Source: Rhodoplanes sp. Z2-YC6860
GTDB taxonomy: Bacteria; Pseudomonadota; Alphaproteobacteria; Rhizobiales; Xanthobacteraceae
Reading direction: 5' to 3'
Length of the DNA: 64,000 nucleotides
Assembly: GCF_001579845.1 (NCBI RefSeq)
Contig: NZ_CP007440.1
Coordinates: forward strand, 5,044,029 to 5,108,028
The translations under genes were made by a program, and so were the position numbers. Below, piece after piece: positions 15,673 through 20,281 of the stretch. Each line of letters begins with the position of its first letter. Positions within the stretch are counted from its first letter, which is position 1. The notes beneath the pieces were generated by a model. That model ran no database searches. It worked only from the letters and a program-made list of their open reading frames with translations, and was not told the origin of the DNA.

Positions 15673-16259
15673 GAGTCGCTGCTTTGCACACCGAAGCCAA
15701 GGCGTTCATGCCACCCGACTGCCGTGATGTCGAGCCGTCTCACTCCCGCGAAAAACCTGTTGAATACCGGCGTTGGATAAGTTCGCGGCCGAGCTGTGGG
15801 GCCACGTCACGGCGCGCGATTCCCACAGGCTCGGCGAGCCGGTTCACGCAAAGAGGGCCACGGCAAAGGGCCGGCCCGTCCCTGCCCGTCCCGTATCTCG
15901 ATAACAGTTTGATGACACGGCAGAATCGCTGCGCATCGCCTGAAAGCGCCCGGTTCCGCTCCACGCGAAAGCCCGGAAAAACGTGAGCGCGCTTCCCGGC
16001 CGGAACACGCCGCCCAAACGGTTTCAGGCACGCTGCCCGAACGTTATTGGGGATTGACTGTGATTTTATGACAGACGCCTTGGGAAATTGTGACCGAGGG
16101 GCCTTTCCGAATCTCGCTGATCTGTCCGATACTTCTGGCTCTCCCCACTGAGTCGTCCCCGCAGTCCCCATTGTTCACAAGGGACACAAGACTTAGTATT
16201 TGATTCAGATTTGACGACTACTGCTTGACGGGTGCGGCGAGTCTGTCTTAGCGTTCAAA
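15673..16259. other. Long non-coding stretch between NDUFA12 and nrdJ
   Basis: No convincing gene lies here. The rightmost part (about 16140-16260) is more AT-rich and should hold the nrdJ promoter. One candidate is TTGACG at 16225-16230 with a weak -10 (TTAGCG) 17 bp on; another TTGACG starts at 16211. I could not recognise a clear NrdR box or a cobalamin B12 box. Confidence 0.5.
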
Positions 16260-16405
16260 CCGTTCGGCGCGGGTCTGTGTGTTGTCCCCGCCGGGCACAA
16301 TCTTCAGATCGCAGACAGGCTTCCGCCCGGGTTTTCCCGCCCGGCGGGGAGGGAAAACTGTCGCCTCGATCGACCGTTTAAAGGCTCAGTCCAAGGGCCG
16401 AACGG
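16260..16405 (+). ncRNA. Structured leader of nrdJ with two kissing hairpin loops
   Basis: A closing stem CCGTTCGGC (16260-16268) / GCCGAACGG (16397-16405) encloses: GTCTGTG (16273-16279) / CGCAGAC (16310-16316); inside it GTTGT (16281-16285) / ACAAT (16297-16301) presenting the 11-nt loop CCCCGCCGGGC (16286-16296); and GTTTTCCC (16331-16338) / GGGAAAAC (16351-16358) presenting the loop GCCCGGCGGGGA (16339-16350). The two loops are perfectly complementary over 11 nt. This suggests a pseudoknotted regulatory RNA ending 138 nt before the nrdJ start. It lacks the cobalamin riboswitch core that I know. Structure read by eye; no folding was run. Confidence 0.7.
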
Positions 16406-16543
16406 GTGCCGGTTTGGGTACCCGATGACTATGTAAGGGATGCGTCAAAAACACTGAGCACGGCTGGGCTTTAAGGGCCTCGGCCGAAGAGAAAATGTCG
16501 GCACTGAGGGGTGCCGCGCGCAACGACAAGGGGCCATACCAAG

Positions 16544-20281
<3,738 letters not shown>

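Follow-up and report, generated by a model that had tools for sequence, protein, structure and literature searches.

Known leader RNAs and the nrdJ locus

Cobalamin riboswitches (RF00174) are leader RNAs of B12-linked genes, and pseudoknotted riboswitches are exemplified by SAM-II and preQ1. An RNA upstream of nrdJ is also already on record, as a sequence-only reading of the DNA studied here had suggested might be the case. This is the nrdJ RNA RF03034, which appears in a table on Streptomyces (PMC8079986). The SAM-II (metA), serC, speF, suhB and ybhL motifs are, like the RNA described below, alphaproteobacterial RNA elements found by comparison (PMC1273637); the main text of that source contains no nrd or ribonucleotide term. 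In the open-licence literature that we searched, we found no earlier description of an nrdJ leader RNA in the bacterial family considered here.

The stretch of DNA that we analysed (the window, 64,000 nucleotides) comes from the 8.19-Mb single-contig genome of Rhodoplanes sp. Z2-YC6860. The nrdJ gene occupies 16544-20281 on the + strand, and the proposal that the leader precedes the gene of a B12-dependent ribonucleotide reductase was borne out by a match to NF005736 at 2298 bits. Judging from the best 80 of 591 loci, the closest relatives of this nrdJ are those of Xanthobacteraceae and Bradyrhizobium-type bacteria. NrdJ is the sole reductase detected in the genome: nrdJ is the only PF02867 gene detected, and neither a class I small subunit nor NrdD was found there. 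Control of NrdJ therefore bears on DNA synthesis. The genome also holds one NrdR gene.

A search of Rfam, suggested along with the earlier reading, returned no family that reaches its gathering threshold in any part of the window. This includes RF00174, in agreement with the remark that the core of the B12 riboswitch is not seen. At a permissive threshold, the interval 16000-16600 gave three matches, all at chance level, and among relatives there was no match in 20 leader loci at E<=1 and none in 12 loci at gathering thresholds. The nrdJ leaders tested thus give no Rfam match above chance, which sets them apart from SAM-II (metA) and the serC, speF, suhB and ybhL motifs. Two canonical cobalamin riboswitches do occur elsewhere in the genome (G000:C1:6329642-6329842 and 3359484-3359687), so RF00174 is present in this genome yet not used at nrdJ. 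RF03034 and the leader have their location upstream of nrdJ in common, but RF03034 differs in fold, with two successive hairpins over 80 positions; when its consensus was compared by eye, this two-hairpin layout with an AGACA-type linker was absent from the leader model. We rejected RF03034 as the identity of the leader, since none of the 292 genomes of the family reaches its 40.3-bit cut-off, and none of the weak RF03034 matches in the family that could be compared lies at the nrdJ location. One RF03034-like match in the collection (L234, G157:C5:26080-26155) scores 29.8 bits against the cut-off of 40.3, lies away from nrdJ and contains a strong GC hairpin. Pseudoknotted riboswitches such as SAM-II and preQ1 resemble the leader in sending a 5' strand into a downstream loop, a contact that a ligand could close, but no sequence relation between them and the leader was detected.

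Promoter and predicted transcript start

Two NrdR-like boxes, ACACAAGACTTAGTAT (16184-16199) and CGACTACTGCTTGACG (16215-16230), and a promoter consisting of TTGACG, 17 nt and TTAGCG (16225-16253) sit on the + strand just 5' of the leader, so the transcript is expected to start near 16260, with a predicted start at about 16259-16261. The second box overlaps the -35 element, and both boxes recur 5' of the promoter in nrdJ relatives (consensus from 120 rows). We call these putative sites NrdR-like because they resemble NrdR boxes and are separated by a 15-bp spacer. NrdR binding has been reported at box spacings of 14-17 bp (PMC12051234), and nrdJ may already be under NrdR control.

Among 159 distinct upstream regions of nrdJ relatives, 125 contain the pattern TTGAC-spacer-TAG. 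These regions derive from 180 loci, namely the best 80 of 591 and 100 further regions, of which 11 could not be oriented; 170 sequences, with the window included, reduced to the 159. A generic sigma-70 promoter scan gave the TTGACG/TTAGCG promoter no score, and the case for the promoter and its predicted start therefore rests on comparison. The main text of a Bradyrhizobium start-site map (PMC4842269) contains no nrd term.

Two further features of nrdJ upstream regions deserve mention. About 50 nt 5' of nrdJ, the A-rich AGAAAAT (16490-16496) could be a second -10 element; its counterparts are GATAAAAT in most congeners and GATATAAT in one other relative. In Rhizobium, Roseibium and Brucella relatives (among L073-L103), NrdR-type palindromes of the kind CACTATATATAGTG, at times a pair of them, lie 5' of nrdJ, and by eye the leaders seem unrelated to the leader RNA of the family.

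Family-wide distribution of the leader RNA

Many leaders show the same succession of elements straight after the promoter: GTYCGGCGCGRGTG, CCCGCCGGRC, a small hairpin, and two helices that we call P5 and P6; a regular expression recovered the 5' motif in 80 of the 125 promoter-bearing regions. Covariance model R1 was seeded with 27 of 30 Bradyrhizobium-type leaders (alignment A1), a seed from which the window and its genus were absent. It nevertheless matches the window leader at full length (27 bits, E 0.0048 in 502 kb), the best of four matches in the window. At whole-genome scale this match is weak, with E 0.077, and in the order-wide search it was not reached at 0.05. A second model, R2, was trained on alignment A3 with the window included; it gives the window 51.9 bits, a score obtained by a member of its own training set, and at E<=0.5 it recovered 76 of a chosen set of 98 leader loci. 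Together the models place a conserved structured RNA domain at 16257-16368 on the + strand. That a structured RNA before nrdJ is real and conserved is, in our judgement, nearly certain.

Applied at E<=0.1, R1 matched 133 of the 292 genomes of the family and missed 159, and within the window's genus it matched 2 of 11 genomes and missed 9. The position of nrdJ is listed for 77 of the 135 R1 matches, and 76 of these 77 lie 167-342 nt 5' of nrdJ on the same strand, a count that leaves out the other 58 matches; the match in G312 is 5' of nrdJ. Sampling across the order, R1 gave matches in 11 of 297 genomes, 9 belonging to the family, and R2 in 17 of 397, every one a family member, in searches whose stricter filters lose weak matches. 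Given these order-wide results and the nrdJ-adjacent positions, the leader RNA appears to be mainly restricted to one family and one gene. No conserved upstream open reading frame was seen when the leaders were inspected by eye.

An extra R1 match in G296 (E 6.1e-5) is a degenerate leader before a gene other than nrdJ. This copy lies on the - strand (L223, G296:C1:900900-903400), and the gene that follows it, which we take to be DUF3800-like, has a start resembling that of nrdJ. Perhaps a duplicated nrdJ promoter region was here taken over by another gene.

Nested helices of the leader

Helices P1/P2, P4, P5 and P6 covary across the family. In the window, the strands of P1 are GTCTGTG (16273-16279) and CGCAGAC (16310-16316), P4 is a small hairpin, ATC-TTCA-GAT (16300-16309), that we assigned by eye, and P5 joins CCGCC (16323-16327) to GGCGG (16343-16347), all on the + strand. 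The position of P4 is that of a CCC/GGG hairpin in Bradyrhizobium-type leaders, in which 88.5% and 85.5% of cells are paired; when P4 was tested by itself, 5 rows were usable, too few to say anything. The region 16230-16430 folds better than its shuffles (z -2.96); a single one of 200 shuffles did as well or better.

Two alignments were used to assess these helices. In A3 (73 rows, being matches from 94 sources with a few false ones among them), 82.5% of cells pair, compared with 71.8% in shuffled and 35-51% in slid controls. In A4 (77 rows, nested helices only), the corresponding figures are 76.5%, 64.6% and 40-49%, and the covariation score of 0.390 against 0.214 for shuffles was equalled in none of 500 shuffles. 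Since the nested model guided the fitting of both alignments, their pairing counts are biased towards it. A register-free test of nine segments, giving 36 pairs, ranked P5 highest (z 3.9), then P1/P2 (3.3) and P6 (2.8); next came the loop pairing of the sequence-only reading (2.1) and the pseudoknot candidate Pa (1.7). Unrelated segment pairs span z -3.4 to 1.3, and because some of them reach -3.4, a z near 2 falls within the spread of this test. One wrong-strand row was omitted from the segment test, from the family test of the loop pair and from the genus tests.

Within the window's genus the picture is flatter. P1 pairs in 39 of 63 cells, a weak level of support, and P5 in 32 of 45 cells across nine congeners, where the alignment slips by one base; neither shows a covariation excess in the genus. 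A genus-only free-register test on 10 sequences likewise gave no excess of covariation for Pa, P1, P5 or the kissing loops. A structured 5'-leader domain with family-wide covariation, one general mark of a riboswitch, is present at nrdJ.

A likely pseudoknot at the transcript start

The strand at the transcript start, GUUCGGCG, is complementary to CGCCGGRC in the loop of P1/P2, which suggests a pseudoknot that we call Pa. In the window, Pa would pair GTTCGGCG (16262-16269, +) with CGCCGGGC (16289-16296, +); the latter strand belongs to the P1/P2 apical loop and also lies inside the first loop drawn in the sequence-only reading. We regard Pa as likely, not proven.

Several comparisons speak for Pa. 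In nine congeners, 63 of 72 cells are paired. On A4, at least 7 of the 8 pairs form in 62 of 75 rows, the 2 of 77 rows with gaps being left out, and the total of 540 pairs against 531.9 in shuffles was reached by 6 of 2000 shuffles. In free register, 114 distinct leaders scored 1852, whereas 300 shuffles averaged 1738 (sd 24) and peaked at 1808; a neighbouring control segment gave no excess in the same test (1297 vs 1353). The whole helix is replaced in some divergent leaders: GTGCGGTC faces GGCCGCGC in L025, a member of the window's genus, GGTCGCCGCG faces CGCGGTGACC in L193, and GTGCGG faces CCGCAC in L139. The common 5' strand is missing from 54 leaders, of which 13 fall within their best tenth, against 5.4 expected; the median of these 54 shows the own 3' region to be no better a partner than foreign ones (median 0.58). 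Column-wise, covariation of Pa is not in excess (0.167 vs 0.166), and segment tests based on A4 are weak, with z 1.7-1.9.

A local hairpin, GTCC-CCGCC-GGAC, was also considered and dropped: it pairs in 65% of cells, whereas the outer half of Pa reaches 88%, and its own pairs show no excess (196 vs a shuffled mean of 196.4).

Downstream leader and probable output

Beyond the conserved domain, the + strand contains a hairpin, CGGGTGCC/GGTACCCG (16403-16424), which was read from the sequence and also appears in predicted folds. It is followed by a conserved stretch, ACTATGTAAGGGATGCGTCAAAAACAC (16428-16454), that is strongly kept in most of ten genus leaders and least in L027; TATGTAAGGGATGCGTCAAAAACAC is this same stretch, situated in the second half of the genus leader. 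The ribosome-binding site AAGGGG (16528-16533) was assigned by eye, and AGGGGC stands before the ATG in 10 of 10 aligned genus leaders. In the consensus fold of the ten genus leaders, a further hairpin (16499-16516) abuts the ribosome-binding site on its 5' side. Since this hairpin is present in the genus and no terminator-like site was found on the + strand between 16100 and 16600, control is probably exerted on translation.

Proposed mechanism and alternative explanations

That the leader RNA regulates nrdJ in cis is probable. Our best reading, to which we give about an even chance, is that it is a new orphan cis-regulatory RNA, riboswitch-like and probably acting on translation; that it is a small-molecule riboswitch we would place just short of even. 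On this reading, the 5' untranslated region of nrdJ would open with a domain of about 110 nt, made up of P1/P2 with P4 inside it, then P5 and P6. The pseudoknot would close the domain, with the 5'-most nucleotides of the transcript pairing into the P1/P2 loop. The putative sensor would toggle between this pseudoknot and a state in which the strand in the P1/P2 loop has its partner further downstream, in the 3' arm of P5. Its signal would pass to the ribosome-binding region some 160-180 nt downstream, a relay that we infer because there is no intrinsic terminator on the + strand.

Adenosylcobalamin or a deoxynucleotide would be the first candidates for a ligand, and the tie of the RNA to a single gene says little about which it is. 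Shut-off by B12, the response of classical B12 riboswitches, would be surprising in a sole reductase; activation by the cofactor or feedback by deoxynucleotides would fit better. In its most specific form, the proposal is that the eight-nucleotide CGCCGGRC strand can pair either with the 5' end or with the 3' arm of P5 but never with both, and that adenosylcobalamin or a deoxynucleotide, by settling which pairing forms, decides NrdJ synthesis, an RNA-level feedback beside NrdR. This version is speculative and unlikely. If the RNA did sense B12 or deoxynucleotides at a B12-dependent reductase, it would constitute a second layer of control besides NrdR and a counterpart to the nrdJ RNA of Streptomyces, to which it is unrelated. 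Being family-wide and without an Rfam match, the leader RNA would be an orphan riboswitch candidate open to testing in Bradyrhizobium and Rhodopseudomonas, genera that are cultivable and harmless.

Other explanations of the leader must be weighed against a riboswitch-like RNA. Single-gene association is the usual pattern of protein-bound leaders, and the RNA is linked to one gene in 76 of the 77 checkable matches. The leader could accordingly be autoregulatory, with NrdJ itself or another RNA-binding protein binding it and repressing translation in the manner of ribosomal-protein leaders, and dosage control would be plausible for the sole detected reductase. We nonetheless consider autoregulation unlikely, given that NrdR, a known reductase repressor, is encoded here and NrdR-like boxes lie at the promoter, and we know of no RNA-binding role of NrdJ. 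The fold might also be passive and set mRNA stability or a fixed rate of translation with no sensing. GC-rich leaders fold anyway, and the whole leader from its predicted start barely beats its shuffles (z -0.99; 23 of 200 at least as good), yet conserved strand and loop sequences combined with a candidate pseudoknot are more than a stability element needs, and a purely passive role seems to us improbable. Finally, the conserved run continues unbroken from the promoter into the leader, as it would if the block after the start bound a protein as DNA and the RNA fold were incidental; two-sided changes in the pairs of P1/P2, P5 and P6 would be unexpected for a DNA site and make this very improbable.

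The sequence-only reading had drawn another fold, in which two hairpins kiss over 11 bp within a 9-bp closing stem. All strings that it quoted are located in the window: CCGTTCGGC (16260) and GCCGAACGG (16397), CCCCGCCGGGC (16286) and GCCCGGCGGGG (16339), GTTTTCCC (16331) and GGGAAAAC (16351), and GTCTGTG (16273) and CGCAGAC (16310). The complementarity of the loops is present as well, over 12 bp rather than 11 (16285-16296 with 16339-16350), and a perfect complement of at least 11 nt arose in 5 of 500 dinucleotide shuffles of 16260-16405. Pairings of ten bp between the same loop regions occur in two relatives, and family-wide the strand pair attains z 2.1, with 13 of 500 shuffles as high, fourth among the 36 segment pairs. 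On covariation between the loops the results point both ways: beside this family-wide score, the pairing shows none in the genus (196 observed vs a shuffled mean of 202.1; 10 sequences, free register), and of 76 family rows examined singly, 7 place in their best tenth, the level of chance. Among nine congeners, the 11-bp kissing interaction in fixed register pairs in 37 of 99 cells, a pessimistic figure, as the alignment is shifted by one base close to P5. In free register, 5-8 bp form between the two loop regions in 9 of 9 congeners, and in 6 of the 9 the pairing is supplied by CCGCC with GGCGG, both of which are conserved motifs.

The remaining elements of the drawn fold fare less well. The second hairpin, GTTTTCCC/GGGAAAAC (16331-16358, +), is perfect in the window, where it is an alternative to P5, but specific to it, pairing in 24 of 72 cells across the nine congeners; the closing stem pairs in 48 of 81 cells and has a family-wide z of -0.7. 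In the minimum-energy fold from the predicted start, moreover, the 12-bp complement becomes an ordinary stem instead of kissing loops. The idea of a structured, probably regulatory RNA before nrdJ thus stands, whereas the two-hairpin kissing fold as drawn is mostly unconserved and most unlikely to be native. The evidence on the loop pairing is mixed, and we do not adopt it as the native fold; possibly it represents a second state of the RNA, in competition with the pseudoknot over a shared strand.
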